DNA from: an uncultured Fidelibacterota bacterium
Lineage (GTDB): Bacteria > Fidelibacterota > Marinisomatia > Marinisomatales > TCS55
Assembly: GCA_902615915.1 (NCBI GenBank)
Contig: CACMQQ010000006.1
Coordinates: 23,624-87,623 of the forward strand
Reading direction: 5' to 3'
DNA: 64,000 nucleotides
The number at the start of each line of letters is the position of its first letter. The stretch's first letter is position 1. Positions 1 through 24,445 of this stretch are shown one piece after another. A model generated the notes under the pieces. It saw only the letters and a program-made list of their open reading frames with translations, was not told where the DNA came from and did not search any database. The position numbers were made by a program, and so were the translations under genes.

Positions 1-1724
1 ATGTTGATAATGATGTTCAAAATGGAAGAACCTATTATTATGCATTAGTTGCCTACGATCACGGGGATGAGGAAAAGGATATTTTCCCGTCAGAGAATTC
101 AAAGTTCATTTCAGTTTTACCAACTGGTGAAATTATCACAGATCAAAATACCGCATATATCACTCCTACATCATCTGCAGCAGGTTATTCGCTCAATGAT
201 ACAATCAAAACAAAACATCAAGGACCTGGCACGGGTTCTCTAAAAATAAATATAGTCGACGAACAAGCACTAACTGGACATCAATATCAAATAGAATTTT
301 ATGATACTTCCAATGATGGCATAGACAATGATAAAGATTGGGATGTGGCCACAGACGACATTGGAAGTGATGGTTTGTCAAATACCAACGATATGGATGG
401 ATCGGAAGGAAACGGATTGCCAGATATTGGCGAGCCTAACTTTGATTGGACAGATAACGAAGAATACACTCCCATTACAACTCACTACAGCGTTAAAGAT
501 CTTGAAACCAATTTTGACTCATTCACACCAAATGATACTTTTTTTGTAGCGCTAAACAAAAAAAATCTTATATCCAGCAGCATTGAACTTAAAAATAGCA
601 CAGGTTTTGTGATCCCTAGCTCTGATTACGAAATTGATACTAAGCTTGGTAGAATAAGAGCAAGCAAAAGCGGTTCATTGGGCTCTGATGAACACACCCT
701 TTCATTTCAATACTACCCAATATTTTTTAATCCATACATACAACAATCTATTTGGAATGACCCTTTAAAACTTCCTTATGTGACAGAGAGGAGTGACACA
801 GATATTTTTGATGGGCTATCAATTGAATTTAACAACGATTGGTTTATCACCTCTGATGATGAAAATACCTATTGGTGGACAACTGAAGATAATGTTGAAT
901 GGAAAAGAAATGATGGTGAAAATACCTACTTCTTTATTGTAAGCGCTACTGACCTTGACACAAATTTTGACGGAAAGGTTGATTTAAGAGCAATTAGAGT
1001 ACCAAATAAATATGCAGTGGTTTTTTCAGACAGGGACGATTTTGGAAGATCTTATATTTCACTTAACAACTTATTACCTGGCAATAAGACCAATTTTAAG
1101 GTTATGAATTTGACAGATAACATTGAAGTACCTTTCTTTCTTTTTGATTATCCTTTAGGAGAGACAGGAAAGATTAATTCAGGCGACTACATATATTTTT
1201 ATGATAAAGATTCACTTGGAATTGATAGATATACCTGGAACATAACTTTTACAAAAAGACAATCCCAAGAAGCAAATACTGAGTTTACTTTTGGTAATGG
1301 CGACACGTTATTTATTGATTTTTCTAAACCTTTTCGAAATAGCGATACATACTCCTTCAATGGACCAAAACCTGATGTCAATATACCGTTAGTTTCAAAA
1401 GAAATGGATCAAATCAAAGTTGTTCCGAACCCTTACATTGTAGGGCACCGGTTTGAGTCCCCTCTCCCACCAGGCATTACTAGTGGCAGAGGGTCGAGAA
1501 AAGTAGAATTTCAGAATCTACCCTCAAATGCAAAGGTCCATATATACACCTCTAGAGGCCAGCATATTCGCTCTCTTCAGCATGATGGTGGACTCTTTAG
1601 TGGAACAATTATCTGGGACCTAAAAACAAAAGAAAATTTGGATGTTGCTTTTGGTGTTTATTACTATATAGTCGAATCTGAATTAGGTGGAAAGACCTCG
1701 GGCAAATTAGCGGTGATTAAATGA
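1..1724 (+). CDS. Large secreted/surface protein, 3' part only (5' end outside window), with VVPNPY-type C-terminal sorting (T9SS-like) domain
   Basis: Frame 3 is open from the window start (VDNDVQNGRTYYYALVAYDHGDEEKD...) through the listed 459-aa ORF. It matches the 12971..16423 protein in motifs (VDNSVMNGRTYYYGLVAYDYG; ...VVPNPY...; ...GVYYYIVESELGGKTSGKLAVIK). Confidence 0.85.
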   Translation, partial: VDNDVQNGRTYYYALVAYDHGDEEKDIFPSENSKFISVLPTGEIITDQNTAYITPTSSAAGYSLNDTIKTKHQGPGTGSLKINIVDEQALTGHQYQIEFYDTSNDGIDNDKDWDVATDDIGSDGLSNTNDMDGSEGNGLPDIGEPNFDWTDNEEYTPITTHYSVKDLETNFDSFTPNDTFFVALNKKNLISSSIELKNSTGFVIPSSDYEIDTKLGRIRASKSGSLGSDEHTLSFQYYPIFFNPYIQQSIWNDPLKLPYVTERSDTDIFDGLSIEFNNDWFITSDDENTYWWTTEDNVEWKRNDGENTYFFIVSATDLDTNFDGKVDLRAIRVPNKYAVVFSDRDDFGRSYISLNNLLPGNKTNFKVMNLTDNIEVPFFLFDYPLGETGKINSGDYIYFYDKDSLGIDRYTWNITFTKRQSQEANTEFTFGNGDTLFIDFSKPFRNSDTYSFNGPKPDVNIPLVSKEMDQIKVVPNPYIVGHRFESPLPPGITSGRGSRKVEFQNLPSNAKVHIYTSRGQHIRSLQHDGGLFSGTIIWDLKTKENLDVAFGVYYYIVESELGGKTSGKLAVIK

Positions 1725-2719
1725 ACAAAATTGCTTGTCTAATTCTAATGCTAACAACGTCCCTTTACGCTCAATCGAAAGTTGGAAGTTCTGCTGCGGC
1801 TTTTCTTGGATCAGGGGTCGGTTCTAGGGCCATTGGAATGGGAGGTGCTTTTTCAGCTGTAGGTGGAGATGCGTCAATACTCTACTGGAATCCTGGTGCG
1901 ATGGCTAATATAAAAAAATCTGAGGTCCTATTATCCAAAGCAAACTGGTTGGTTGAAAGCGATCTCAACTACATTGCTTCTATAATTAAGCTTGAGAAAG
2001 GTAGAAGTTTTGGTGGATATTTAATGCAATTGGATTATGGCAGAGAAGAAATAACAGATTTAAATAATCAAAATGGCACTGGGCAATATTGGACCGCAAT
2101 GGATTACGTTCTAGGTTTGGGTTTAGGGTCTAAGCTTTCAGATAGATTCTCTGTTGGCGCTGTAGGAAAATTTATTTCGCAACGTATCCATTATACATCT
2201 GCTTCAACCTTCGCTTTGGATCTCGGACTTCACTATAAAACCAAAAATGATAAGGTTCGCATAGGTATGTCAATCGCTAACTTTGGACCCGACATGGCTA
2301 TGGATGGCAAAGATTTATTCAAGAAAATAGATATCGATCCTGAAAACTCAGGCCACAATGAATCTTTGGTGGCAAAATTAAAAACCGATCCTTGGCCATT
2401 GCCTTTATTTTTTAGAGTTGGCACAGCGATAAAAATAATTAATACTGATTTACTTTCAGGTACGCTTGCAGTTGATACTTTTGTCCCTAGCGATGATGTT
2501 GAAATTATCAATATTGGATTTGAATTCACTATTCTTGAGCGTTCTAATGTTCAACTTGGGTATAAAGGGCTTGGAAACCCGTCGAGTGAGGAGGGGTTCA
2601 CATTTGGCGCTGGCACCATGTTCTATGCAGGTGGCTTTGATGTTAGACTAGACTATTCTTTGCGGACCTTTGGACTTTTTGGAAACATATCGAATTTGTC
2701 GTTGTCGTTTGTTTTTTGA
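1721..2719 (+). CDS. PorV/PorQ-like outer-membrane beta-barrel protein
   Basis: 332 aa, signal peptide, 'GVGSRAIGMGGAFSAVGGDASILYWNPGAMA' typical of the PorV/FadL-like family; start overlaps the preceding stop (ATGA). Confidence 0.85.
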   Translation: MNKIACLILMLTTSLYAQSKVGSSAAAFLGSGVGSRAIGMGGAFSAVGGDASILYWNPGAMANIKKSEVLLSKANWLVESDLNYIASIIKLEKGRSFGGYLMQLDYGREEITDLNNQNGTGQYWTAMDYVLGLGLGSKLSDRFSVGAVGKFISQRIHYTSASTFALDLGLHYKTKNDKVRIGMSIANFGPDMAMDGKDLFKKIDIDPENSGHNESLVAKLKTDPWPLPLFFRVGTAIKIINTDLLSGTLAVDTFVPSDDVEIINIGFEFTILERSNVQLGYKGLGNPSSEEGFTFGAGTMFYAGGFDVRLDYSLRTFGLFGNISNLSLSFVF

Positions 2720-7648: not shown

Positions 7649-9622
7649 CTATCTAACGATAGTAAATTTTTCTTTAATTAATCTTCTGCCGTCTCCAATG
7701 CTCATTAGATAAATTCCACTCGATATAAATTCACCATTTAGAGATCGGCCATCCCAAACAAATTGATTTTCACCTACTTTACCATCAAATGAAGTTTTAA
7801 AGATTTCTTGCCCTTTTAAATTGTAAATAATCAAAGAAATATTCTTAGGATTAAGACTTTCAAATTTTATATAAAGTGATCCAAATGTAGGGTTTGGAGA
7901 TATAGAGTGGGAGTATATCCCTTCTCCTTTTAATGAAGCTTCAGACTCAATTTTTAACATTTTAAGGTTAGACCCTCCTCTTGCTATTAAAAGGGTAATT
8001 GAATTTTGACCTTTAGATAAATTTACGGTTCCAAGATCGGTTTCTGTCCAAACATTATAATCTCCAGTAATAGGCAATTCAGTATTCTCAATTAGTATTT
8101 CATTGTTCATCCTAATGGATACTACCCCTGAAGTATTTTCTGATGAAGATAGCAATTTAAAGGTGTAATCATCATTTTTTAAAACATTGAAAGTATATTT
8201 TAAAAATTCTCCATCCTTGGTATGACTGATGTGATAATCAGATATGGATTGATCAGTCGATGTCTCAATATCTACTCCATCGTTTCGATAGCTCCATCCC
8301 AAATTCCAAGGTTTAAAATCAGGTCCAGTATTTCTGTAATCTGCTATATCATAATCAAAGTATGCAATTCCTTGCGCGCCAATATCATAGTTTACCAAGG
8401 AAAGTTCACCAGGTATATTGTAAATGTCGTAAGGGATATTCTTTATCTTGTAATTATCGTCAAGCAAGGAAGCAACAACGCCTTTTTCAACTTGACAATT
8501 TTCAATCTTTAAATTTTCAAGCATATTATTTAACCCTAGCATAGACTTTTCTAGAGACGGCTTAGGGGCTGTTCCACTCCAATAGTCCAATATTTCTCTA
8601 TAAACAGGATCCATCATCGATATCAAAGGTCCTTTAATACTGCCAATTTTCTTGTGGTTCCACCAAGCCCAACCAATATCAAATGTCTCCATCAGCGAAC
8701 GAACTTCCATAAACCATTCATTGGAGTTTTCACCAACCTCACCGAGCCAAAGAGGCCTATTGGATCTATTGCGTAATTCTAAAAGATAATTGATTGTTTG
8801 TATAGTAGGCTTGGAGAAAACCATCCATGAATAATAGTGAAAGGCCCATGCCATATTATCATCGAAAGCAGGTTCAGAATCTTCAAATGCCCTTGACCAC
8901 CAATTGCCATTGACGAACAGTATTCTTTTGTTATCGTGCAATCTGATCTTATCTCTCATTCTCCTCTGAATTTCTCTGACTGCTTTTCCGTCACCATGAA
9001 CAGGTTCATTTAAAAGGTCGTACCCACCTACCCATGGTGTATCTTTGTATCTTTTTGCGATTTCACCCCAAATTTCTACAGCCCAATCTTGATTTTTTTT
9101 ACTGATCCATAGCCTTGCAACACCATCCGAGTCAGCATTATGATCTTGGCTTTGCGATCCTGGTGCAACATGCATATCCAGGATAACATAGATTTGGTTG
9201 TTTGCACACCAACTGATCAAGCTATCCATTATAGCAAAACCTTCTTCATTGTAGGAACCAAGATCTGAACTTAATGCCTTATAATGAAATGGAAGTCTTA
9301 CAGAATTAAACCCCCATTCTGCCAACTGATCAATATCTTTTCTATTTAAAAAGTGTTGCTCATATCTTTGAAAGAAAACTTTTGCTGAATCAGGACCAAT
9401 CAGATTTGTAATTTTGTTTTCTATATCTGTAGGAGATCCAGCACCTGGGGTTTGAAGCATGTACCCTTCTCTAACTAACCAACCACCTAAACCCATCCCT
9501 TTGAGGATAATTTTCTCACCCTCGCTCGTAAAAATGTATTTTCCCGCCGAACGCAAATAGGATGCATGTGCTGAATTAGTAATAGCTAAAAATAAAAATA
9601 TCTTAATTAATACTTTTTTCAT
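7649..9622 (-). CDS. GH5-like beta-glucanase with CBM6-like domain and C-terminal sorting domain
   Basis: 657 aa, signal peptide; 'GFNSVRLPFHYKAL', 'YDLLNEPVHGDG', 'LWLGEVGENS'; CBM6-like segment ~aa 400-560; tail 'SISPNPTFGSLYIKFE...SGIYLMSIGDGRRLIKEKFTIVR'. Confidence 0.85.
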   Translation of the reverse strand: MKKVLIKIFLFLAITNSAHASYLRSAGKYIFTSEGEKIILKGMGLGGWLVREGYMLQTPGAGSPTDIENKITNLIGPDSAKVFFQRYEQHFLNRKDIDQLAEWGFNSVRLPFHYKALSSDLGSYNEEGFAIMDSLISWCANNQIYVILDMHVAPGSQSQDHNADSDGVARLWISKKNQDWAVEIWGEIAKRYKDTPWVGGYDLLNEPVHGDGKAVREIQRRMRDKIRLHDNKRILFVNGNWWSRAFEDSEPAFDDNMAWAFHYYSWMVFSKPTIQTINYLLELRNRSNRPLWLGEVGENSNEWFMEVRSLMETFDIGWAWWNHKKIGSIKGPLISMMDPVYREILDYWSGTAPKPSLEKSMLGLNNMLENLKIENCQVEKGVVASLLDDNYKIKNIPYDIYNIPGELSLVNYDIGAQGIAYFDYDIADYRNTGPDFKPWNLGWSYRNDGVDIETSTDQSISDYHISHTKDGEFLKYTFNVLKNDDYTFKLLSSSENTSGVVSIRMNNEILIENTELPITGDYNVWTETDLGTVNLSKGQNSITLLIARGGSNLKMLKIESEASLKGEGIYSHSISPNPTFGSLYIKFESLNPKNISLIIYNLKGQEIFKTSFDGKVGENQFVWDGRSLNGEFISSGIYLMSIGDGRRLIKEKFTIVR

Positions 9623-10451
9623 AAACCCTTACATAATCTACCAGCATTTTTCTTGGAAAGTTTGTACTATTATCTGGATTTCCAGGCCAATCACCCCCTA
9701 CTGCAATATTAATTAATAAGTGAAATCTTTGATCAAAAGGCCATGTCTTGTAGTTCCCTTGTTGATCGTTTTCAAATAAAAAATATTGCACATCATCAAT
9801 AAAAAAAGAGATCTTATCCTTATCCCAAATTATAGAATAAACATGAAACTCAGTGTCGACATTTGCAATTTTTCTAGCTGATGATCTTTGCGTATTTATC
9901 TTATGATTATACGCTTCTGTATGCACACTTCCATGCACAACTCCAAGATCATAACCAACATGCTCCATAATATCAATCTCACCACTAGATGGCCACCCAC
10001 CAAAAAGCCAATCTGTAGGTAGCATCCAAATTGCGGGCCAAATTCCCTGCCCGCTTGCCACTTTTGCTTTTACTTCAATTCTTCCATATTTCCAATCACC
10101 TTTACCATAGGTTCTGAGTCTTGCAGAACTGTAATATCGCAATCCTTTGGATGATCCAATGCCTTGAGGAACTACCTGGGCTTTTAGAATGAGATTCCCA
10201 TTTTCAACATATGAGTTGGAGTCTGAATCGGTATAAAATTGTAATTCATTATTGCCCCATCCGTGCCCCCCTATCTCACGAGACCATTTTGTTAAATCTA
10301 AAGAATCTTTATCAAACTCATCTTGCCATACTATATTCCAACCCTCAATTTCCCAATCATTTGTTTCCTTATTTTGGCTAACCATCTCTTCTTCAGAGCA
10401 AGCAAAAAAGAAAAAACATACTGTAATTATAGAGTTTAATTTGTTAATCAT
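9603..10451 (-). CDS. GH16 family beta-glucanase (laminarinase-like) lipoprotein
   Basis: Lipobox 'FFFFACSEEE'; catalytic 'GEIDIMEHVG' (ExDxxE); 'WQDEFDKDSLDLTKW', 'GIWPAIWMLP', C-terminal 'MLVDYVRVYE'. Confidence 0.93.
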   Translation of the reverse strand: MINKLNSIITVCFFFFACSEEEMVSQNKETNDWEIEGWNIVWQDEFDKDSLDLTKWSREIGGHGWGNNELQFYTDSDSNSYVENGNLILKAQVVPQGIGSSKGLRYYSSARLRTYGKGDWKYGRIEVKAKVASGQGIWPAIWMLPTDWLFGGWPSSGEIDIMEHVGYDLGVVHGSVHTEAYNHKINTQRSSARKIANVDTEFHVYSIIWDKDKISFFIDDVQYFLFENDQQGNYKTWPFDQRFHLLINIAVGGDWPGNPDNSTNFPRKMLVDYVRVYEKSIN

Positions 10452-11911
10452 TAGCGAGAAATTTTTGAACCATAATCAATATAACTGTCATCTGTGAAAG
10501 CTGGAAAACTTGGAACGATGACCGGATAAGGTACGTTACTTTGAGTTGCAAACATATCAACATTTGAAATTGAAATTTCCTCAAACATATCCATATCTAT
10601 CTTAATCAAAGAGCTGTGTTTTATTTGTAATTCATCGATGAGTGGTTTGAGCTTTTCATGGACATTATCCGAAGATTCAAATTCGCTTATTTTTAATGCG
10701 GCATATTGAAATGCATAAAAACTATCAGACCACAATTGTTCATTTAAAATAACGGAGTCATCCTCATCAAGTTTCATTTCATAAGCTTTTTGGGTTAAAT
10801 AGTAATCTTGAACAAAATCGATGATAGCTAATTTTAATTGACTTGGAAATTCCTGAGTAGACATCTTTCTTTTTCTGAATACTAATGGATGGGAAAGGAT
10901 AGACTCCTCAAACTCTTTTATTGTCCAGTTTTCTTGATTAATACTAAATAGTGGCAATTTTTTAAAGTCTTCACCTAGAGGTTCTAGTTTATCAATTTGT
11001 AATATTTCTGAATCCTCAAAAAGTGCCTTTGAAACAGCTGACTCCCTTTCCTTTTCGGAAGTGAAATACCTTTTGGCCAAAGACTCTGCATATTTAGGGA
11101 AAACCTTATCATCCAATAACAAAGACTTACCCTTCATAACATCACCTACAAGTTCGGAATACAAACGTAATGCTTTTCTTTCTTTCAATGTTCTAGACAC
11201 TGATTCAATTCGATCTTCAATGGATTTTTTAGTAATATCAACATTATCCTTCCATCCTTTTATTTTCATAACAAATGATGATCCATCATTCAGTTTGATT
11301 GGTCCAAAGACTTGGTTAACAGAAACATCATCACCAGAGAATAATAAATTATCTATCGTTTCATCATTTGAATCAATCCAATTAACTTCTCTTTCAGGAA
11401 TACTGCCCTTAAATGCGTATTTATATATTTGATCGATCTCTAATCCTCTATCAATTGCGCTTGCTACAGAATCACTAAATTCACCACCAGGAAAAGAAAA
11501 ATAGTTTACTTCGTAGGTTCTACCAGCCATTTTATAATAATGCTGAATTTCATCGTCAGTTAATTCTACTTTTGAAAAAGCATGTTTAAAATAAAGCAAT
11601 TGTCTCATCGCTTGTTCTTTTCTTCCTTTTAAATAACTATCTAAAGATGCAATATTCTTTGATGCCCTGATGTTTTCAGATTCAAGTGCTAATAGTTTTT
11701 CAGCGATAAGATTGTTTAAAATAATTTTTTTGTGATAGTATAAATTTCCCTTACAAAAGATGGGGCGAATTGTATATTCTGCTCTATTTAAAAAGTCTCT
11801 TTTAGTTATAATTCTATTTCCAACTTTTGCAAGAATTGAAAAGTCTTCTGATACATTACTGCGGTTTTCACAACTAACAAATAAATAAAAAAGGATTAAA
11901 AACCGGATCAT
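10451..11911 (-). CDS. SurA/PpiC-like periplasmic peptidyl-prolyl isomerase/chaperone, lipoprotein
   Basis: 486 aa, 'FYLFVSCENR' lipobox, 'LAKVGNRIITKRDFLNRAEYTIRP', 'LTDDEIQHYYKMAGRTYEVNYFSFPGG', 'FGPIKLNDGSSFVMKIKGWKDN'. Confidence 0.6.
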   Translation of the reverse strand: MIRFLILFYLFVSCENRSNVSEDFSILAKVGNRIITKRDFLNRAEYTIRPIFCKGNLYYHKKIILNNLIAEKLLALESENIRASKNIASLDSYLKGRKEQAMRQLLYFKHAFSKVELTDDEIQHYYKMAGRTYEVNYFSFPGGEFSDSVASAIDRGLEIDQIYKYAFKGSIPEREVNWIDSNDETIDNLLFSGDDVSVNQVFGPIKLNDGSSFVMKIKGWKDNVDITKKSIEDRIESVSRTLKERKALRLYSELVGDVMKGKSLLLDDKVFPKYAESLAKRYFTSEKERESAVSKALFEDSEILQIDKLEPLGEDFKKLPLFSINQENWTIKEFEESILSHPLVFRKRKMSTQEFPSQLKLAIIDFVQDYYLTQKAYEMKLDEDDSVILNEQLWSDSFYAFQYAALKISEFESSDNVHEKLKPLIDELQIKHSSLIKIDMDMFEEISISNVDMFATQSNVPYPVIVPSFPAFTDDSYIDYGSKISR

Positions 11912-11924
11912 CGGTTAAGAAAGT

Positions 11925-12974
11925 CTAAAAACTAAAACTGACCGTATAAGAACTTAAGTCGCCAAAAACTCCCATAGTGCGATGCGAATAATCGAGTTGG
12001 ATAGATTGATTGTTCATCAAGTTTATTTTTAATCCTCCACCTAAAGTCATTCCAAATTGAGAATCAACCATAAAAAGCGACTTATAACCCCCTCGAACGT
12101 AAAAACTACCTTGGCCTGCAAGTTTCAACTCATATTGAGCACCAATGTTCACATATTCAGAGTTGTTATTAGGATGAACTGCATCAATGGCTAAAATTAA
12201 CCTGTGCATATCTGTTAACAATGGCTTAAGACCAACACCTATTCTAAAGAACAATGGAAGTTCCCATTGACCAGGCCTGAACTGACCAGGTACATCAGCA
12301 AAATTACCATCCTCAAAAGGTGCAACGTCAATTGGATTTAAAAGATCAATACCATCATACTGCAATCTGGTTCCATAATTAGAAATACTCATTCCAATCC
12401 TCAAACCGTCTTCTGCTTCACCAGTAGGGGATAGAAAACTAGTGTTGACAATTGAACCTAAATCCAATGCAAACGCAGTTGCGGAAGAGTGCCAAATTTT
12501 TGATGATACCAATTTAGCGGTCGCACCAAATGAAAATGATTCTACTATTTTCCTAGAAAAGGTAACGCCTGCACTAAATTCATTTGCGGTAAATTTTTCT
12601 CCCGTACCATCTTGTTGCGCCATAGTGGTCACATCCATATCTCCATATCCCATTTGAGTAATACTAAGCGCGAAAGTGCCAATCCTGTTTAGATATATGG
12701 ATGCACCAAAATACATCATATTAATATCTAAAATCCACGGTTGAAGCATAAATGAGGTCTCATTTTTGTTGACAAATGCTAATGCGGCAGGGTTCCAATA
12801 AACCGATGAAGGTCCTTGGGCAAAAGTTACCCCAGCATCTCCCATTGCAGTATTGGCGCTTCCCACTCCAATTTCTAAAAAGTTTGCTGACGTTGAGCCA
12901 TAACGATTAATAGTCTGGGAAGATGCTGTAGACATACAGATTAAAAGACTAATTATTAAGAATAATCGTTTCAT
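11925..12974 (-). CDS. PorV/PorQ-like outer-membrane beta-barrel protein (paralogue of 1721..2719)
   Basis: 'FLEIGVGSANTAMGDAGVTFAQGPSSVYWNPAALAFV', 'SFGATAKLVSSKIWHSSATAFALDLG', C-terminal 'QLDYSHRTMGVFGDLSSYTVSFSF'. Confidence 0.87.
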   Translation of the reverse strand: MKRLFLIISLLICMSTASSQTINRYGSTSANFLEIGVGSANTAMGDAGVTFAQGPSSVYWNPAALAFVNKNETSFMLQPWILDINMMYFGASIYLNRIGTFALSITQMGYGDMDVTTMAQQDGTGEKFTANEFSAGVTFSRKIVESFSFGATAKLVSSKIWHSSATAFALDLGSIVNTSFLSPTGEAEDGLRIGMSISNYGTRLQYDGIDLLNPIDVAPFEDGNFADVPGQFRPGQWELPLFFRIGVGLKPLLTDMHRLILAIDAVHPNNNSEYVNIGAQYELKLAGQGSFYVRGGYKSLFMVDSQFGMTLGGGLKINLMNNQSIQLDYSHRTMGVFGDLSSYTVSFSF

Positions 12975-15900
12975 TTTATTACTGCAAATTTTCCTAGTTT
13001 TTCATCACCCGTGACAGATGACTTAACATGGTAAATATACATGCCTGCTGCAATTTCTAAACCTTCTCGAGTTAACATATCCCAATGAATTGATCCTCGT
13101 TCTGGTGAATTATTCACATTAATCTCATCAACAAAGACTCCGCTTACAGTATAAATTGATATAACTGATTGAGCTGGAATATTTGTAAAAAGCAATCGCC
13201 TTCTTTGATTAAGAAACTGATTTGAAACAGCAGGCTCCATAACATTTGATGCAACATAAGGATTTGGCACCACCTTTATATCTTTCATCTTGAGCTTAAG
13301 TGAATCAGCATTCAACTCATCAAATGTTTTTACTGTAAATTTAAAGTTATCATTTGTGAAAAATGGCCGTTTGAATTTGACTCTAAATACATCATCAGCT
13401 TTAGGGTATGTGGCGCTTGAAGCAAGAGTAAGATCAATGACAAAAACAGTGCCAGCCCATTTTTTATCAGAGGTTAAACCCCCAACTAAGATACGATCCA
13501 CTGAAGAATCAAAGTCGCCGCTTTCATCCACATCATGGACCACCAAGTCCATCATTTCATAAGATCCATCATTTTTTAAAATTATGTTGTTTTTAACTAC
13601 AAAATTAAATGACTGAGCTAATAGTAATTGATTGAATGGTATCTGTTGGTCTAGTTCGTCTCTAATACCCGATTTATTAATCGTTTGGGTCGTGTAAGCA
13701 GTTTGATCAAAAGTAAACATAACATCATAATCCCATGGCATATAAGCTGATTCACGAAGCGATGGTAAAACTCGCATAATTCCAGATCCTTGTACCCAGC
13801 CAGAATTAACATAATCATAAGCAGGGGATATAAAGGGCTGGTTAATAATCAGCTGTAATCCATCAAAAATATCTGTCTCAATTGCAACTTCATCATTTAA
13901 ATACCAAAAACCCAATGAATCATTTTCAACCAAGTTACTGCCAGTAAATTTCTGAGGGGTTTCACTATAAATCAAACTACCTGAAGATGTGTTATAGACA
14001 TTTATTTCGCTTGTTGAGTAACGAATTCCATATTCATAATTTGGAATCGTATCAATTGTATCAACACCAAAAACAACACTGTACTGATTGTTGGATGTTA
14101 GGCTTGATTGAGCCAAAATCACAGGTTCGATAGTGCCACCGCCAGTTAGATTATTTTCGTCAACTGTAAGCTCAGGGGAGCGATAACCAGCAGCTGGTTT
14201 TGTAGGAGTTACGATTGCCACATTTTTGCCTATCGACCTAACATCTTCTGCTTCATCTAGTTCTATTACCACATTATTCTCAGATGGAGCTATACCAGGA
14301 CCAATATTAGGAGCACCATAATCATAGGCTACTAGACCATAATAGTAAGTTCGCCCATTCATGACAGAATTATCTACAAAAACATGGGTTAAGCCGTTGT
14401 CGGTCCCAAGGTTATATGCGACTCCATTAATTAGGCCAAAATCTGTAAAACCATATCTACCATCCTTAATATCGCATTGAAAGATTGGCTTCATAAATGT
14501 TGGAGTACCATAACCATCGGTTATCACCTCAGCATCAGAAAAATATTTATCTGTTGCTCTGAAGAGCTTATAACCTTCAAAATCATTCACATTTCCCAAA
14601 AAAGGATCTCTGGTTTTGGTATCAGAAATATTATCCCAAGAGAGTACTACTTTGCCGTCACCTGGTGTTGCAGTCAACGTAGGCATTTTTGGCGGCTGGG
14701 CAAATCTGTAGTCCTTCTCGTAAATAACTTGAACAATAGACTTCAATTGGTACAAAGATGGAGCAGTATGCTCGCTAGAATTCAGACCTTCTAATGGATC
14801 AAAGGAATGTAATTCGGCCATCGAAATTCTTTCGGTTTGGCCTTGATAAAGGGGAAATGGACCCGATGCAAAAACTTCAATAAGGTTAGATATATTATCG
14901 ATATATACCTCTAAAACTTTCTCACCAATAAGCTGCCACATGGCTTCATCATTTTTAAACCACCACGTATCGCTTGAGGAGGCATGACTTGGAACTGGAA
15001 ACAAACGAAAAGCGGTCAATCCAATCATATCAGATTCTGATACATCCGTTTCTGCAAAATTAGGCTCAGAGCCAACACCTTCCTTGTAATCGGGTCTATG
15101 ATTACCCTCACCCTCATCAGGGCCAGTATAATTTAATTCTCCTGGTCCAACTCCATCCAGGCCAATATCATCACCAAAATACTCTGAGGCTTGGTAAATA
15201 CCGTCACCATTCAAGTCTTCTCCATCTTCCCAGTCCTGATCTTCATCAGCATCCCAGTGCTCTTTCAAATCACTTTCTTCAAGTTTATAAAATGAAAGGA
15301 AGTCTTGCAAATTGCTTATTCCTTCCGTTGGTCCAATTTTATTAACCGCAATATTATCACGCTTCTCATCAACGAGACCGTCTTGATCATTGTCTATTCC
15401 ATCGTAGGGCACCCCAGGGCTCTCTAAGTAAGCAAAACCCATCGTACCTGTTGGCAAACCACCAGCGCCAATGCCATTGATATCCCAAGAATAGGACATG
15501 TCTAATTTTGTATCAAAAAAAGCAAGTTCATCACTGCCATCATTACCAATCGCATTATCCGCCCAATAACCAAAAGCCACTTCTGTAAGATCATAATCTG
15601 AAATATTTGCAATGTTATACTCCCAAAAGATAGCGTCACGAGCCTGAGGGTTGTTCCATTGGAATCCGCGAGCCTCTACTCTAATTCCTAATCCACCCCA
15701 AGGTTTGCCTTTACCAATGGTTACATCATCTTTTAAATCGCCGATATTTTTACCCTTTCTTGGGTAATATCTCACTCGATCTCCCAATTCAAGATATTCT
15801 TGATCTTGGGCATCATTTGCTACAAAATATGTCTCCATATCAGCATAAATCACACCTCTTCCAAATCTACCATCCCACTCACCTTGCCATTTTGTTTGAT

Positions 15901-16423
15901 TTCCAACAGAGGGCCATCCGTTCAATGGCCATGAATTGGGACGATTACTCATAGCAGGATACTCGCCCGTTTCGTTAAAATAACCAAACACAGGATAGAG
16001 TCCGTACTCAACTGTTCCTGTAGGGTCTACATCCATTTCTTCTCTGTAGCTCGTTTGAAGATAATATAGTTCATGTAGATCTTTTCCAGCTGCTATAATA
16101 GTTGTATCAGTTATCACTTCACTATCAATTAAGTTATTGGGGTCATCCTTGATGTAAACTTTTGCACCTATTAATAAACCTATACCATCAACCATTTTTA
16201 AACCATTTAAATTGTTGGGCCATCTAGATACATTGGACTTAGGCCAATCTGAAAGCTCGGTGGTATTTCTAAAATAAAGAAACACTCTGTTGCCTGTCAT
16301 ATAGCCTTCTCTTTCAGCAGCAATATCACCAGCAGGATCTTCAGGGCCTTCATATACTCTTCCTTGGCCAAACAAAAAGGTTAGGCTGAAAAAGAAAAAT
16401 AAAATTTTAATAATTTTTATCAA
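12971..16423 (-). CDS. Giant secreted protein with Ca-binding-like and FnIII-like segments and VVPNPY-type C-terminal sorting domain
   Basis: 1150 aa, signal peptide; 'DGIDNDQDGLVDEKRD'; 'TPGDGKVVLSWDNISDTKTRDP...FEGYKLFRATDKYFSDAEVI' (FnIII-like); 'IKVVPNPYVASN...GMYIYHVKSSVTGDEKLGKFAVIK'. Start overlaps the preceding stop by ATGA. Confidence 0.88.
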   Translation of the reverse strand: MIKIIKILFFFFSLTFLFGQGRVYEGPEDPAGDIAAEREGYMTGNRVFLYFRNTTELSDWPKSNVSRWPNNLNGLKMVDGIGLLIGAKVYIKDDPNNLIDSEVITDTTIIAAGKDLHELYYLQTSYREEMDVDPTGTVEYGLYPVFGYFNETGEYPAMSNRPNSWPLNGWPSVGNQTKWQGEWDGRFGRGVIYADMETYFVANDAQDQEYLELGDRVRYYPRKGKNIGDLKDDVTIGKGKPWGGLGIRVEARGFQWNNPQARDAIFWEYNIANISDYDLTEVAFGYWADNAIGNDGSDELAFFDTKLDMSYSWDINGIGAGGLPTGTMGFAYLESPGVPYDGIDNDQDGLVDEKRDNIAVNKIGPTEGISNLQDFLSFYKLEESDLKEHWDADEDQDWEDGEDLNGDGIYQASEYFGDDIGLDGVGPGELNYTGPDEGEGNHRPDYKEGVGSEPNFAETDVSESDMIGLTAFRLFPVPSHASSSDTWWFKNDEAMWQLIGEKVLEVYIDNISNLIEVFASGPFPLYQGQTERISMAELHSFDPLEGLNSSEHTAPSLYQLKSIVQVIYEKDYRFAQPPKMPTLTATPGDGKVVLSWDNISDTKTRDPFLGNVNDFEGYKLFRATDKYFSDAEVITDGYGTPTFMKPIFQCDIKDGRYGFTDFGLINGVAYNLGTDNGLTHVFVDNSVMNGRTYYYGLVAYDYGAPNIGPGIAPSENNVVIELDEAEDVRSIGKNVAIVTPTKPAAGYRSPELTVDENNLTGGGTIEPVILAQSSLTSNNQYSVVFGVDTIDTIPNYEYGIRYSTSEINVYNTSSGSLIYSETPQKFTGSNLVENDSLGFWYLNDEVAIETDIFDGLQLIINQPFISPAYDYVNSGWVQGSGIMRVLPSLRESAYMPWDYDVMFTFDQTAYTTQTINKSGIRDELDQQIPFNQLLLAQSFNFVVKNNIILKNDGSYEMMDLVVHDVDESGDFDSSVDRILVGGLTSDKKWAGTVFVIDLTLASSATYPKADDVFRVKFKRPFFTNDNFKFTVKTFDELNADSLKLKMKDIKVVPNPYVASNVMEPAVSNQFLNQRRRLLFTNIPAQSVISIYTVSGVFVDEINVNNSPERGSIHWDMLTREGLEIAAGMYIYHVKSSVTGDEKLGKFAVIK

Positions 16424-19089
16424 AAATTCATTCCCAGTGAAAATTTAACGAGGCGAGGTGTCGAGTACATTGAAGGATTTTGTACTCTATCTAAATAGTC
16501 ATTGAAATCGCTTCTATGTCCGGCAAGGTCAGTATCTTTGATAACTGCAGTATAAGCTCGTCCAGTTTGAGAATTCACAAATTCTTCGTTGAGCCTGTCG
16601 AAGAGATTGTAGACAGCTAAGCGCATGTTCAAAACATAATCTTTAAATATAGGCAAATTGTAATATGTCATTAAATCAGCAGAAAACTTTGCAGGCCTAT
16701 AATCATTATTAGGATAAAGATTGATTCTAGATAGCCTGCTTTCTTCGATAGGTGAAAAACTATAAGGAGACCCTGAATTATAATAACCAGTTATAGATCC
16801 TCCAAATGCACCCATGTTATACGCTAAAGTTGCATTAAGGGTGTGTCTTTGATCCCAGCTCATCGGTATAAACCTATTTACCGGGTCCATGCTGGCACCC
16901 GATCTTGAAAAGGTCTGTTGCGGATTATCAGCATTGCCTTTTGTATATTGTAAGGTATAATTAACCCAAGCTGATATTGGTCCAGAATGTGCATCAAGCT
17001 TAACTTCTAACCCTCTTGCATTGCCATAATCCTTATTGCTATACAAACCATATTCTATTTGATTATAAGTACTTATAACTTTGGTGCTTAACAAATTATA
17101 TATATCTCGATAAAATAATGAAACTTCTAAGCCGGTCCCCGGTGTCAGCTCTTGCCATAATCCAAGCTCATATGTAACAGTTTTTTCAGCCTTTAATTCT
17201 GCGTTACCCATTGTTGTTGAGTAATCATTTGGAGCTATTAAAAAAGAATTGTTTTGATATAGAGAATACATGGAGGGCATTTGAAAAAAATGTCCATAGC
17301 TAAAATGTAAAACAGCTGCATTTCCAAGTTGATAAGCTAAACCAAATCTCGGACTAATTTGCACTTGGGGTTCAGCATTAGGGTAATTAGACATCATTGA
17401 GTCTGGTAAACTTAGCTGATTTGCAGGATTCCTTCGGTCCGATGGCATCTTAGTGTTTGGATCAAAGCGATCGTAACGTAATCCAAAATTTATTACCATT
17501 GCATCAAATTCCATCTTGTCTTGCATGTAAAAGGCTATTTCTTTAGGGGCGACTTTATAAACATCTCCATACAGGGTGGAATCACCAAAGATCTTGGGTG
17601 CATAGAGAGTTGCCTCATCAGCAGTTCCAAAGTATTCATTTCTTATTTGATGCCAGGCATTATCAATTTGATAATTTGTCATATTAAAGCCAGTTTTAAT
17701 GCTGTGGTTTTTGTTAACCTGCCAATTGAAATCAAACTTTAGATTTACATTATCAATAGTTCTTTCTTCATGGTTTTTTTCCTGACCACCTGTAAAAAAA
17801 CCAGGACCAAAACTTTCAAGATATTTATCATGAACATAATTGCTATCCAATGGATTTTCATAAAGATAGCCCCCTGAATAATTTTTGGTACTTGATATCT
17901 TCAAATCATAAAACATAGTGTTAGTTAGTAAATGGTTCCATTGAAAAGTAAAAAAATTGGTTTTACCATAACCAGCACCCATTCCATCCGGATTGTATTT
18001 AAATGCATGATTATAGCCATGGCCCTCATCCTGATCAATGGACATCATTGTTGCAAAACGGATTTTATCAAATAAGTGAAAAGAAAGTTTTCCCAATATG
18101 GTAGTTCCATAATAACGATTCATGCTCACATAAGAAGAATCACCTGTATTTTGAGTTACCCAAGACAATGGATCATCACTGTAGTAATTGCTTTGATCCG
18201 TAACGTTAAATCTTCTTATTCCATTTAAATGATTCCTATTAACTTGGTCTCTAACATTAAAGAAGAAGTGAATTTTATCTTTTAGAAGAGGACCGCTTAA
18301 TTGAAATTTGTAGTCTTGATTTCTATTAAATACTAAATTATCTAAACCGACGAAAATATCAGAATTACCTGTAACATATTCAGAAAACCCGGATGAAAAC
18401 GAGCCTTCGAATTTATTCGAACCATCTTTGGTTATTGCATTTACTACACCACTCATTGCTCTTCCATATTCAGCATTAAATGTACCTGTTATAACTTCTA
18501 AATCTTCTACGGCTTCAGGTTCAAGCTGTATAGTGGATGAAGAACCACCGAATACTTCATCAACCTGAACTCCATCAATTAGATACGTTACTTCAGTATT
18601 TCTACCGCCTCTAAAATTGCCATTAACGACTCCCGCCTGCATTCCAACAACTGCTCCAATGTCTTCAATGGGCAGTTTTTGCATTTGATCAGAAGAAATA
18701 TTTTTAATGGTTGAGGTTTGGTCCTTCTTTGTTGTGATTGCATCAACTTCTACAATGACAGTTTCACCTTGTATCACAGTCGATTCTAAGTTTGCATCAA
18801 TAGTAGTAGTTCTGTTGACTGACACTCTTACATTCTCAAGCCTTAGTTGTTTATAGCCAATCATATCCACAACAAGAGTGTAAGTGCCTGGTTTTATATT
18901 GATTATGTAGTAAGAACCATCCAAGTCTGTTGCAGCACCAAAAGCTGTGTTTTGGACTATAACATTAGCTGCAATTAAAGGCTCATTTGTATCTGCATCT
19001 TTTACTACGCCTGATATTTTACCAGTTGTCTGAGCAAGAGACAAAGAAGCGAAAATAATGAATGATAATATTTGTTTTATTTTTTTCAT
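16420..19089 (-). CDS. TonB-dependent receptor with N-terminal carboxypeptidase-regulatory-like domain
   Basis: 889 aa; 'GKISGVVKDADTNEPLIAANVIVQNTAFGAATDLDGSYYIINIKPGTYTLVVDMIGYK', plug 'GVVNGNFRGGRNTEVTYLIDGVQVDEVFGG', 'EYGRAMSGVVNAITKDGSNKFEGSFS'; barrel C-terminus. Confidence 0.93.
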   Translation of the reverse strand: MKKIKQILSFIIFASLSLAQTTGKISGVVKDADTNEPLIAANVIVQNTAFGAATDLDGSYYIINIKPGTYTLVVDMIGYKQLRLENVRVSVNRTTTIDANLESTVIQGETVIVEVDAITTKKDQTSTIKNISSDQMQKLPIEDIGAVVGMQAGVVNGNFRGGRNTEVTYLIDGVQVDEVFGGSSSTIQLEPEAVEDLEVITGTFNAEYGRAMSGVVNAITKDGSNKFEGSFSSGFSEYVTGNSDIFVGLDNLVFNRNQDYKFQLSGPLLKDKIHFFFNVRDQVNRNHLNGIRRFNVTDQSNYYSDDPLSWVTQNTGDSSYVSMNRYYGTTILGKLSFHLFDKIRFATMMSIDQDEGHGYNHAFKYNPDGMGAGYGKTNFFTFQWNHLLTNTMFYDLKISSTKNYSGGYLYENPLDSNYVHDKYLESFGPGFFTGGQEKNHEERTIDNVNLKFDFNWQVNKNHSIKTGFNMTNYQIDNAWHQIRNEYFGTADEATLYAPKIFGDSTLYGDVYKVAPKEIAFYMQDKMEFDAMVINFGLRYDRFDPNTKMPSDRRNPANQLSLPDSMMSNYPNAEPQVQISPRFGLAYQLGNAAVLHFSYGHFFQMPSMYSLYQNNSFLIAPNDYSTTMGNAELKAEKTVTYELGLWQELTPGTGLEVSLFYRDIYNLLSTKVISTYNQIEYGLYSNKDYGNARGLEVKLDAHSGPISAWVNYTLQYTKGNADNPQQTFSRSGASMDPVNRFIPMSWDQRHTLNATLAYNMGAFGGSITGYYNSGSPYSFSPIEESRLSRINLYPNNDYRPAKFSADLMTYYNLPIFKDYVLNMRLAVYNLFDRLNEEFVNSQTGRAYTAVIKDTDLAGHRSDFNDYLDRVQNPSMYSTPRLVKFSLGMNF

Positions 19090-19172: not shown

Positions 19173-22100
19173 TTATTTCATTAAAATCATTTTTTGAGTT
19201 TTGGTAAAAGTTGGTGTTTCAAGTCTATAGAAGTAAACACCTGAAGACATTGTTGATGCATTCCACATCACTTTATGTCTACCAACTTGCTTATACTCAT
19301 TTACCAAACTTACCACTTCTCTACCTAAGATATCGTAAATCATTAGTTTCGCTGGGCCAGCAATTCCAATAGAATATTCTATGGTAGTAGTTGGGTTGAA
19401 TGGGTTTGGATAGTTCTTTTCTAATGAAAAGACATTAGCAACAATATCTTGCTCGGTTGAAAGCTTATTGCCATCTTTATTGCCGAGGAAGGTATAAGTC
19501 CAAACCTCAGTTGTTTGATGGGCACGATCATTATCGAGCTTAGATAGTGTTGTAATTGCATCCAATCCTGAACCTGAATCATTATCATGGATCAAAAGCT
19601 CAACCGGTAGCCTGTCGCCAACTTTAGGTACATATAATGAGTCAGGTGTTGAGTTGGTTCCAGCACTAGCATCCCATCCAGATACTTTCATTCTTAGACT
19701 ATCTAGGCTAATTCTAAACTCCACTGTGTAGTTAGCTGTTTGTGTGGTTCCATTATTTGAATGGAAGTAGTGACCATCGCCATTTTTAGCAAGCTCGCCA
19801 CCACCATTATCTGAATTGGCGGCACTTTGTGTAAAGTATAGCTTGTAGTCTGGCTTAGCGCCTCTTTTTAAGCTATTATGCTTTGGCCCTCTAGCATCAT
19901 ATAAGCCTAAACACATTTGCAATGCATCGCCTGTCCACCAACCGCCACCTGTGTTAGCTGTATCGCTAATTACAACATTATCAATAATGTCTGCAGCCAT
20001 ATAGAGCATGCTGTCATCCATTGCAATATAAAATTTTCCACCAGTATCATTTGCATCATCGAATGTACCAGCACCACCGCCGGCAGTTGTAACATTTGGA
20101 GTACCATAGGAGTTCTCAGTAGTTCCTACAATGAATGGTACTACATTTGACCATTCAGATAGATCACCATCAGCCTTAAAATCAGTAGGCGCAGTAGGTG
20201 AAACTACAGGGACACCTCTACCAAAATTAGATACAGGTGATGTGCTTGCTGAAACTGTGCTCTTATTACCGTTCTCATCTGTAGCTACCACAGCATAGTA
20301 ATAACTTCTGTTATAGATATTGGATAGCGGTACTAGAATGTCATGATTTGCAGTCTTCTTACCTTCTTGAACACCAAGCTCTACTAGATCAACTTTATTA
20401 TTTGAAGCCAAAGAATCGGCAACAGTATCTGTAAAAGCAACCTCGCTTGCATAAACATCATAAGTCTCACCGGCTTCTCCAGGCACATCATCCCAAACTA
20501 CTGCATTCAAATATTGACCAGGAATGGCTGTAACGCTTTGTGGTTTTGCTGGTGGAACAAAATCAAATACTGGAGAACCAGTCCATACATCAGTCAAGTG
20601 TATAACTTCTCCGTTAAAACCTGTACCTTGTGCAATAAACTGAGCAACCTTAACCTTTGATGTATCAAAACCTGATGAGGTACCATCTCCATAAACAAAG
20701 TCTTTAAGAGGCAGCTTAACTGTTTGCCATGCACCATCAGCTGTTATGCTGAATTCATGGACTAATTTTCCAGAACCAGCTTCAAACTGAAAGCGTGCAT
20801 TTGTTCCAGAATATTTAGCTGTTTTGTATTTGAATTGTAATGTATCAGTGGGCCATTCAAAAGTCATGTTAGCATTGGGACTTAAATTATAGCCATACCC
20901 TGTTACACCCCAATTATAATCACCAAGAGTCCATTTTAGAGCATTAGTAGCTGAAGTTACGCCTGCTCCAGTAACTAGTTCAGCCGCTGAGCCTCCCCAT
21001 GTGAAAGAACCAGCAGAATTTTTAGGTCCTAATGCTTTGCCATTGAATAAGACCAATGGAATTTTTTTCTGACCTTTGAGCATAATATTATCAAATAAAA
21101 TTGTACCACGGGTTCTGTCGCCATCACCGCCACCACCCATGGAAAATTCTATAGACCAACCTTTTATCTTATCGGTATCAAGTCTTTCATTGCCTGCAAT
21201 TCCTGCCCAGCCAGTTCTATTAAAAGCTGTTGGTGCACCAAATTCACCAGGGTTATTTATAAAAGGAATAGTAATAGTTTTCCAACCACCTGTTGCTGAA
21301 TCAGTAATGCCAGGGGCAAATGAATAATAATACTCACCTAATGCTTGACTACCAGTATAATCATGAGCTCCATCAATAGTACTGTATTCAATTAAGTTAA
21401 ATCTTACAGTAATGCTGCTGGATTGAGTAGCAACGCCAGCGGAATCGACATAATATTGATAAGATAAAGAATCGTATTGAGACCAATCATATATACCGTT
21501 CAAAGTGTCGGGATGCATGTGTTGTAACTTAACATAGCCGCCCCAACCTTCTGTATCATGGGTAGAATAATCTACTCTCATGTAACCATTTGAATAAGAA
21601 ACGTTCGCGTAGGAAGAGTCTTTGCCAGAGCTTCCTTGGTGCTCAAAATGTCCACCCTCAGTTTCATTTGTCGCTTCATCGCCACCAGTGTTGGCCCAAT
21701 ATTGCCAATATGTGGTGTCTTTTGGAAAATCAGCTAAAGAATTGATGACAGGCTTAGCATCCTGGGTCCATGTCCCTGCAGGAATAGTCCTGATGGGCTT
21801 ATCATCAGTAGCTAGGGTACTTTTCCAAACAGTACCATTGAAATTTGTATTGATTGCATTGGGACTACCTTTTCCAGAGCTGATACCCCAAAAACCATCA
21901 CTGTTGTCACCGCCAACATTGTTTTTTGAAAAATCTTTTAATTCCAATGAAGGACCGGTGCCATCATGACCAGAACTAGAAGTGCCCCAACCATTGCCAG
22001 AACCAGATCCATCATCATAATCAACACTGTCAACAGTGACTGAAGAAGAATTAACCAAAGTGATATCTTCACCAGAATTACTTAATGCACCGTTATCGGA

Positions 22101-22424
22101 TCCTCCCCAATCAAAATGAGGGTCAAACCCATTATCAGCTTTAAAACGCACACTATCTCTTGCGAGTATAACGTATGCTCCAGGAGCTATAGTAGCACCA
22201 CTAGGAAAGGTAAAAGTTATACCTTCAACAATTTTCCAGCCACTCATATCTACTGATTCTTGCCCTGCATTAAAAAATTCTATCCATTCACCGCTATCAT
22301 CTGTGTCTGATGCGCCATTGACCTCATAATACGGATTGTACATGATTTCATTAATAACGACCTGTGAATAGGATAACGATACTGTAAATATGGTTAAAAA
22401 TAAAAATCTTAACGTTTTTTTCAT
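19173..22424 (-). CDS. Large secreted protein: lamin-tail-like domain, CBM-like domains, CBM9-like domain, NYPNPFNPTT C-terminal sorting domain; no catalytic motif seen
   Basis: 1083 aa; 'VVINEIMYNPYYEVNG...GEWIEFFNAGQESVDMSGWKI' (LTD); 'DGDLSEWSNVVPFIVGT...LYMAADIIDNVV' (CBM9-like); 'LEKNYPNPFNPTTTIEYSI...SGVYFYRLETPTFTKTQKMILMK'. Confidence 0.85.
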   Translation of the reverse strand: MKKTLRFLFLTIFTVSLSYSQVVINEIMYNPYYEVNGASDTDDSGEWIEFFNAGQESVDMSGWKIVEGITFTFPSGATIAPGAYVILARDSVRFKADNGFDPHFDWGGSDNGALSNSGEDITLVNSSSVTVDSVDYDDGSGSGNGWGTSSSGHDGTGPSLELKDFSKNNVGGDNSDGFWGISSGKGSPNAINTNFNGTVWKSTLATDDKPIRTIPAGTWTQDAKPVINSLADFPKDTTYWQYWANTGGDEATNETEGGHFEHQGSSGKDSSYANVSYSNGYMRVDYSTHDTEGWGGYVKLQHMHPDTLNGIYDWSQYDSLSYQYYVDSAGVATQSSSITVRFNLIEYSTIDGAHDYTGSQALGEYYYSFAPGITDSATGGWKTITIPFINNPGEFGAPTAFNRTGWAGIAGNERLDTDKIKGWSIEFSMGGGGDGDRTRGTILFDNIMLKGQKKIPLVLFNGKALGPKNSAGSFTWGGSAAELVTGAGVTSATNALKWTLGDYNWGVTGYGYNLSPNANMTFEWPTDTLQFKYKTAKYSGTNARFQFEAGSGKLVHEFSITADGAWQTVKLPLKDFVYGDGTSSGFDTSKVKVAQFIAQGTGFNGEVIHLTDVWTGSPVFDFVPPAKPQSVTAIPGQYLNAVVWDDVPGEAGETYDVYASEVAFTDTVADSLASNNKVDLVELGVQEGKKTANHDILVPLSNIYNRSYYYAVVATDENGNKSTVSASTSPVSNFGRGVPVVSPTAPTDFKADGDLSEWSNVVPFIVGTTENSYGTPNVTTAGGGAGTFDDANDTGGKFYIAMDDSMLYMAADIIDNVVISDTANTGGGWWTGDALQMCLGLYDARGPKHNSLKRGAKPDYKLYFTQSAANSDNGGGELAKNGDGHYFHSNNGTTQTANYTVEFRISLDSLRMKVSGWDASAGTNSTPDSLYVPKVGDRLPVELLIHDNDSGSGLDAITTLSKLDNDRAHQTTEVWTYTFLGNKDGNKLSTEQDIVANVFSLEKNYPNPFNPTTTIEYSIGIAGPAKLMIYDILGREVVSLVNEYKQVGRHKVMWNASTMSSGVYFYRLETPTFTKTQKMILMK

Positions 22425-22624: not shown

Positions 22625-24445
22625 ATGAAAATATTTACAAATATATTTGCTTCATTAAGCATTGTACTTTTGTTAGGCGCTTGCTCTAATAGCACTGAAG
22701 CCACAAAGGCAAAGAACATTGCTTTCGTTGATTCTCTAATTTCAAAAATGACACTTGAAGAAAAGCTTGGACAAATGACACAAGTTGATCGTCAATTTTT
22801 AAATGATATTTCTGACATTTCAAAATACGGATTTGGATCTCTTTTAAGCGGCGGAGGGAGCACTCCGGAAGTCAATGAGCCAAAAGCTTGGGCTGAAATG
22901 TATGACAGCTATCAAAAAGAGGCTCTAAAGTCAAGACTTCAAATACCTTTGTTGTATGGAATTGATGCTGTGCATGGACATAACAATGTTGTAGGAGCAA
23001 CTATTTTCCCACATAACATTGGACTTGGCGCTACTAGAGATCCTAAGATTGTAGAAGCCGTTGCTAGAGCAACAGCTCTTGAGGTAGCAGCGACAGGCAT
23101 AGATTGGGACTTTGCTCCATGTCTTGCTGTACCAGACGATTATCGCTGGGGAAGAACATACGAAGGTTTTTCAGAAGATACGGAATTAGTTACTGAACTT
23201 GGCGGAGCCGCTGTAAGAGGTTATCAATCTGCAAATATAAATAATCCTAACAGCGTACTTGCGTGTGCCAAGCATTTTATTGGCGATGGAGGTACATCTT
23301 TTGGAACAGGATTAAACAAATTAATCGATAGAGGAAATTTAGCAGTATCAGAAGATGAGCTTAGAAAAAGACATTTACCACCATTTCAAAAGGCTATCGA
23401 TGAGGGAGTTGCAACATTTATGGCAGCTTACAACACCTGGAACGATCTTAAGTGCCACGCTAATAAGTTTTTGCTCACCGATCTCCTAAAAGAAGAGCTT
23501 GGTTTTAAAGGCTTCGTGGTTTCCGATTGGGCAGCTATTGAAGAAATTCCAGGGGATTATAAATCAGATATCATTACATCAATTAACGCAGGTATAGATA
23601 TGGTGATGGTGCCAGGAGCAGTAAAATTTGGAAACGAATCCTACGAGAACTTTTTAAAGCTATTTAAAGAGTCTGTAGATGAAGGATTGATACCCATGAA
23701 TCGCATTGACGATGCAGTTAGAAGAATACTAATGATTAAAAAACAATCTGGTTTGTTTGAAAGACCGTTTAGCGATCAGAGTCTTTTGACCTACATTGGT
23801 TCACAAAATCATAGACAAATTGCTCGCGAGGCTGTACAAAAAAGCATGGTACTTTTGAAAAATAAAAATGACATGCTTCCGCTTCCAAAGTCAGGAAAAA
23901 AGATTATAGTTGCTGGAAGAGGCGCTGACAACATTGGCATGCAGTCTGGTGGCTGGACGATCAGTTGGCAAGGTGAGATGGGCAATACTACAGACGGTAC
24001 AACCATTTTAGAAGCTATTAGGTCCGCAGTTAATGATGAAACATCCGTGGAATACAGTGTGGACGGCAAAGGAGTAACTGGAGATGTAGCAGTTGTAGTA
24101 ATTGGTGAAAAACCATATGCTGAAATGGAAGGTGATAGGAAAGATCTTAAGATCGCAAAAGAAGATCTTGCTGTTATATCCCGTTTTTCAGATAAAAATA
24201 TTCCAGTTGTGGTGGTCTTACTGTCAGGAAGGCCAATGATAGTTACAGAGGAATTAGACGAATGGGATGGTTTTATAGCTGCATGGCTTCCAGGGACGGA
24301 AGGCGCTGGAGTGGCAGATGTGCTTTTTGGAGATTACAATCCAACTGGCAAATTATCTTTCAGCTGGCCAAAGAATATGGATCAATTCCCTATAAATCCC
24401 GAGGACGATCATTTGTACAAGTTCGGCTTTGGTCTTTCTTATTAA
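22625..24445 (+). CDS. GH3 family beta-glucosidase / glucan exohydrolase lipoprotein
   Basis: Lipobox 'LLLGACSNS'; '[12 protein letters not shown]', '[12 protein letters not shown]', '[11 protein letters not shown]', nucleophile motif '[12 protein letters not shown]', two-domain end '[10 protein letters not shown]'. Confidence 0.95.

Follow-up and report, generated by a model that had tools for sequence, protein, structure and literature searches.

A recurrent gene triad of a TonB-dependent receptor, a giant beta-rich protein and a PorV-family barrel in Marinimicrobia and related bacteria

The 64-kb stretch of DNA analysed in this work (the window) encodes, one after the other, a TonB-dependent receptor (T), a giant protein (G) and an outer-membrane barrel of the PorV/PorQ family (P). 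This triad is real and widespread, it recurs without SusD across the phylum of the source organism and in related groups, and its members are inherited as units. Bacteroidota import polysaccharides by the SusC/SusD pair. On balance we favour the view that the triad is an outer-membrane import module, which in these phyla plays the part that SusC/SusD has in Bacteroidota, with G sitting on its own barrel P as the substrate-binding partner of T at the surface. The association of a receptor with a surface partner and that of a T9SS-type (type IX secretion system) tail with a PorV-family barrel are each known already, separately; we found no description of the triad in the open-access literature searched.

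The locus and the recurrence of the triad

The open reading frames of T, G and P were found on the minus strand at the coordinates which the earlier note had given (Table 1), and the Pfam matches of T bear out its identification as a TonB-dependent receptor. The three genes belong to a minus-strand run with small gaps or overlaps, in the order T9SS-tailed surface protein, T, G, P, SurA-like protein, GH16 and GH5. The overlap of stop and start codons is 4 bp at both the T/G and the G/P junctions, as had been noted; the sequence ATGA, previously ascribed to both, holds for G/P, whereas the T/G overlap reads TTGA because the start codon of G is TTG, and ATGA is thus ruled out there. Scans for promoters and terminators gave nothing above chance level. 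In the functional sense the locus is a polysaccharide utilization locus (PUL), a receptor being encoded together with CAZymes and surface glycan binders (GH16, GH5, GH3 and the SGBP/CBM9 protein). The SurA-like protein has no Pfam match itself, its relatives match SurA_N and Rotamase domains, and homologues with at least 30% identity occupy 18 of 36 positions directly after P, i.e. about half of the triads. It may be a dedicated periplasmic chaperone.

Table 1. Features of the triad locus and of the second triad of the same contig (window positions unless a locus is named)
Feature	Position	Strand	Basis
T, TonB-dependent receptor, 889 aa: CarboxypepD_reg-like N-terminal domain, plug, barrel	16420..19089	-	PF13715, PF07715, PF00593
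G, giant protein, putative surface protein, 1150 aa, TTG start	12971..16423	-	ORF; AlphaFold2 model
G N-terminal domain (N-domain), residues 22-578, compact, beta-rich	14690..16360	-	AlphaFold2, Foldseek
G FnIII-like module, residues about 576-735	14219..14698	-	sequence pattern; FnIII arrays among top Foldseek matches of whole model
G C-terminal domain (CTD), residues 1046-1150, VVPNPY ... GKFAVIK, PorZ/PorU-like T9SS CTD	12974..13288	-	tail/profile comparison
P, PorV/PorQ-family outer-membrane barrel, 349 aa	11925..12974	-	NF033709
SurA-like protein, 486 aa, possible lipoprotein, gene after P	10451..11911	-	matches of relatives
GH16 (beta-1,3-glucanase type)	9603..10451	-	PF00722, E 2e-26
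GH5-CBM35 protein with T9SS tail	7649..9622	-	PF00150, PF18099, PF18962
T9SS-tailed surface protein with LTD, SGBP_B-type xyloglucan-binding and CBM9 domains, first gene of the run	19173..22424	-	domain search
GH3, divergent neighbour	22625..24445	+	PF00933, E 1.8e-77
Second-triad receptor, after GH97, outside the window	L005:12654-15437		
Second-triad giant, 3' end in the window; full gene 1306 aa, L005:15427-19347	3..1724	+	
Second-triad PorV-family barrel, 4-bp overlap with its giant	1721..2719	+	

The earlier note had made recurrence a check of its proposal, and the triad does recur. Giants were found in 185 of the 198 genomes of the phylum; the closest named loci, as judged by the giant (73-78% identical), are from Marinimicrobia (Neomarinimicrobiota), the group to which the organism belongs, so that it falls outside Bacteroidota proper. 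T, G and P occurred together in every one of 20 loci of the phylum that were picked across the whole range of giant identity, from 96% to about 36%. Their order was contiguous T-G-P in 18 loci; in one (L073) an additional ORF separates G from P, and another (L069) reads T-P-G-G. A scan of GTDB genomes yielded 80 giant loci from groups including Neomarinimicrobiota, Calditrichota, KSB1 and Ignavibacteria/Melioribacter. Among the 42 scan loci with enough flank T was present within three genes in 40, P in 40 and both in 38, and 13 of 47 G/P junctions of the scan were 4-bp overlaps. Ten genomes behind the scan loci have many giants each; nine of them, from related groups, supplied 20 more regions, in all of which the triad was complete; and in the phylum of one Melioribacteraceae genome giants (E <= 1e-100) occurred in 61 of 149 genomes. 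It should be added that these samples partly overlap, 78 distinct triads being left once near-identical giants were removed, and that they show G accompanied by T and P, not the converse, because every sample began from a giant. In one KSB1 and one Caldithrix genome tandem giants with a single barrel were also seen, arranged as GGG-P and P-GGG (L105:282-12263; L110:931-12576).

The source genome has a second triad on the same contig, whose giant was found by searching the genome with G and is about 35% identical to it. This triad straddles the start of the window, with its receptor and most of its giant just outside. Its neighbours are GH97 and GH13 genes and those of the first triad GH16, GH5 and GH3, thus one genome carries two triads near different glucan enzymes.

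Absence of SusC and SusD from the triad loci

T is not a SusC according to the curated model. On the SusC/RagA model TIGR04056 it scored 51.8 bits vs. the cut-off of 368, and the other triad receptors scored reached 56-88 bits, all below the cut-off, whereas three receptors from SusD loci, which served as positive controls, passed it with 455-737 bits. SusD was found in 37 of 149 genomes of the phylum. Ten of the phylum's SusD loci were inspected: in all ten a SusC-type TonB receptor of about 1000 amino acids is encoded immediately before SusD, and in all ten G and P are absent. A profile HMM of the phylum's SusDs, made from these loci, had no match in 102 sequences of triad regions and none in 20 further ones. 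The earlier statement that no SusD is present at the locus was therefore confirmed, and it extends to every triad locus searched. Since the SusD loci are without G and P, and the triads without SusD and SusC, the two systems are alternatives within the same phylum and the same genome. The source genome itself has one ordinary SusC/SusD pair, on another contig (L170:7467-11975, G000:C3).

That a SusD is concealed inside G is ruled out by Pfam, profile and fold searches. The Pfam SusD families do not match G, and SusD is absent from the 50 best PDB fold matches of the whole G model and of the N-domain alike. The SusD fold is alpha-helical and TPR-like; the AlphaFold2 model of G, compared by Foldseek, is rich in beta structure and contains no SusD/RagB fold.

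The triad shares with SusC/SusD (RagA/RagB) a TonB receptor with a CarboxypepD_reg-like N-terminal domain and the gene of a surface protein, as we read G, directly after it, and operons that include glycoside hydrolases and surface glycan-binding proteins. It differs in that T is not SusC, in that a third protein, P, is added, and in that G, a beta-rich protein roughly twice as large as SusD, lies outside the SusD family and carries a T9SS-type CTD.

The giant protein and its barrel

G belongs to no family in Pfam or NCBIfam, and no catalytic family was found in it in either collection. PDB sequence searches with G and with its N-domain gave nothing useful, and comparison with a library of viral structures returned generic FnIII-type matches only. 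The AlphaFold2 model of whole G, computed with 61 relatives, is confident and mostly beta (pLDDT 86.8, pTM 0.74), with residues 22-578 folded into a single compact domain (pLDDT 92.3, pTM 0.92). The best Foldseek PDB matches of this N-domain are dextran dextrinase (GH15), cyclic glucan synthase and phosphorylases (GH94), GH116 and copper amine oxidases, which have the supersandwich fold in common. The best of these matches is weak and partial (E 4.6e-6, TM about 0.3), thus it is a lead towards carbohydrate binding and not proof of it. For the whole model the best match is PorZ (E 1.2e-7, probability 1.00), a local one only (TM 0.09), followed in the list by FnIII arrays and PorU, so the FnIII-like segment seen in the earlier note has the support of the fold search. 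The acidic stretch at residues 341-470 may be Ca-binding-like, a reading taken from the sequence only. The N-domain, the FnIII-like part and the last 100 residues are highly conserved, and a large variable middle, at about 750-1050, is poorly conserved.

The VVPNPY sorting tail described earlier turned out to be a PorZ/PorU-like CTD that stays below the curated cut-off for type A: on TIGR04183 (T9SS type A CTD, cut-off 23 bits) whole G scored 18.1 and the CTD alone 21.5 bits. Of the 56 CTDs of the family 55 match the PorZ tail and 50 the PorU tail, compared with 35 that match the generic type A tail. The PDB matches of the CTD are PorU (6za2) and PorZ (5m11), and comparison with type A tails by hhalign gave 94%, at the level of remote homology. 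As the PorU and PorZ models also match other tails in the same genome, the resemblance is suggestive, not exclusive. CHU_C, the type B CTD, was detected in one of 19 giants only, at E 0.015, which does not make these tails type B. In the ten giant-rich genomes from the scan (G198-G207) the CTD type of the giants (profile positions about 1025-1135) also ends many other proteins, often of about 700-750 amino acids, and these stand-alone occurrences possibly represent an unnamed subtype of T9SS tails.

P is, as the earlier note had it, a PorV-like barrel: it scored 199.9 bits on NF033709 (PorV/PorQ family, cut-off 90), and its family profile matches the PorV structure 6h3i with E 1.2e-22. It lies below the equivalogs NF033710 and NF033711, which define PorV or PorQ proper (94 vs. 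250 and 89 vs. 220 bits). The organism is T9SS-positive, the SprA translocon and a PorU sortase (528 bits vs. a cut-off of 420) being encoded in the same genome. Two more PorV-family barrels of the genome adjoin proteins with a T9SS/FlgD-type tail (L025:898-5043, G000:C21; L027:7116-9724, G000:C11), an M6-like inactive metalloprotease and a 558-aa protein. Since these barrels are also paired, combinations of a barrel with a tailed protein seem to be general in this genome.

It is useful to compare G and P with known pairs of the T9SS. In Porphyromonas gingivalis the barrels PorV and PorQ hold PorU and PorZ on the surface (PMC5562754), and the tail of PorZ is uncleaved (PMC8545088). The triad likewise pairs a protein bearing a T9SS-type CTD, which we take to be a surface protein, with a PorV/PorQ-family barrel, and its CTD is nearest to the tails of PorZ and PorU. 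Unlike PorU:PorV and PorZ:PorQ, it is multi-copy and operonic with a TonB receptor and glycoside hydrolases, and G and P fall under the equivalog cut-offs of PorU, PorZ, PorV and PorQ. In Flavobacterium johnsoniae type B substrates need a shuttle barrel encoded directly downstream (PMC12618676), and cognate pairs of type B CTD and PorP-SprF sit in adjacent genes (PMC12618676, PMC9143113). The layout of SprB-SprF, a type B CTD with a PorP/SprF shuttle, is the same as here, the gene of G being followed by that of the barrel; the differences are that P is of the PorV and not the PorP family, that the CTD is type A-like and that a TonB receptor belongs to the set.

Co-inheritance and interpretation

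Over 52 triads the distances of the three proteins were strongly correlated (T-G 0.96, G-P 0.89, T-P 0.92), values which vertical descent alone could yield. As a control, triads were shuffled only within genomes (1000 shuffles). The triad nearest by T was also the nearest by G in a fraction of 0.667, vs. 0.119 after shuffling (maximum 0.424), and for P and G the fraction was 0.364 vs. 0.081 (maximum 0.303). Because the agreement exceeds that of the within-genome shuffles, the three proteins of a triad are passed on together, with T-G the tightest pair. Partial co-divergence was then resolved along G for 78 triads. Residues 20-340 gave 0.42 with T after removal of P and the rest of G (5-95% range of subsamples 0.32-0.55), by far the highest value, and none with P (-0.02), and the partial value with P was largest for the CTD, at 0.25 (range 0.18-0.32); since the pairs of a distance matrix are not independent, these values are a contrast inside one protein and not a significance test. 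Equal 100-residue windows of G agree with this: the T signal peaks at 121-270 and rises again, less strongly, at 821-970, and the P signal climbs only from about 920 to the end. This pattern would be expected if the N-domain touched T and the tail sat on P.

In the import module that we favour, T would perform the TonB-dependent import of oligosaccharides. G would be exported via the T9SS and located outside the cell, where its CTD would remain on its own barrel P, like PorU on PorV and PorZ on PorQ; we propose that P therefore anchors G beside T. The N-domain would pack against T and present or gate the glycan, which the other T9SS-tailed surface proteins and the glycoside hydrolases of the operon would bind and cut. 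Surface location, both contacts, carbohydrate binding and import are what we infer from the data presented above. The earlier idea that the giant takes the place of SusD at the receptor is in part supported, by the mutual exclusion with SusCD loci, the co-inheritance and the co-divergence of the N-domain with T. Of the proposed lid or shuttle made of giant and barrel, P is better read as the dedicated T9SS-type shuttle or anchor of G than as part of a lid. We would give about even chances to a broader reading, taken as a whole: a second, independently built class of TonB-dependent glycan importers over several FCB phyla, a receptor-lid-anchor complex whose lid, in place of SusD, would be a giant secreted by the T9SS. 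This giant, with its supersandwich-like N-domain, would be held non-covalently by its own PorV-family barrel, and several parallel versions of the complex per genome would serve different substrates.

The main features of G and P could also be accounted for if they were an adhesin or surface-binding protein and the T9SS shuttle that serves it, like SprB-SprF, co-regulated with T and standing outside the import complex, G concentrating the glycan like an SGBP. Adjacent genes for substrate and shuttle are a known T9SS pattern (PMC12618676), and the other PorV-family barrels of the genome have tailed partners as well, but we regard this arrangement as rather unlikely, as it does not go well with T-G being the tightest co-inherited pair and with an N-domain that co-diverges with T and not with P, and the operon already has a separate SGBP-like T9SS protein. 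That G is an enzyme or a PorZ/PorU-like accessory factor of the T9SS, and not the partner of T, appears very improbable: no catalytic family was detected, several giants occur per genome, each with its own receptor, and the genes of PorU and SprA lie elsewhere in the genome, even though PorZ is the best match of the full model and the N-domain resembles supersandwich domains of GH15, GH94 and GH116 enzymes.

The last alternative concerns the substrate. From GH16, GH5 and GH3 the substrate of the locus described here is probably a laminarin-type beta-glucan; for the sister locus the probable substrate is an alpha-glucan. GH genes are not dominant or consistently adjacent at distant triads, so glycan import may not hold for all triads, and around distant relatives the triad may serve other nutrients. 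The triads could then be a general uptake module, importing different nutrients by locus with G as the specificity subunit, and glucans only here and in close relatives. Such a module would fit the large variable middle region of G and the fact that genomes of other phyla each hold many paralogous triads, in which GH neighbours are often lacking. We nevertheless consider it improbable, because close relatives cluster strongly with GH16 (23 of 58 proteins at positions +2/+3 after P) and with CBM9 proteins (of 36 proteins encoded before T, 18 have CBM9 and 24 a T9SS tail). It differs from the glycan import module in breadth, not in mechanism.

If the import module proposed here is true, it would show T9SS-type anchoring barrels in a new use, and would allow a direct test of the need of a TonB receptor for a surface partner. 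As PULs are usually recognised by their SusC/SusD pair, any phylum relying on the triad would have its glycan uptake overlooked. For Marinimicrobia, which are abundant in the ocean and for the most part uncultured, the triad would offer a way to learn which glycans are taken up.
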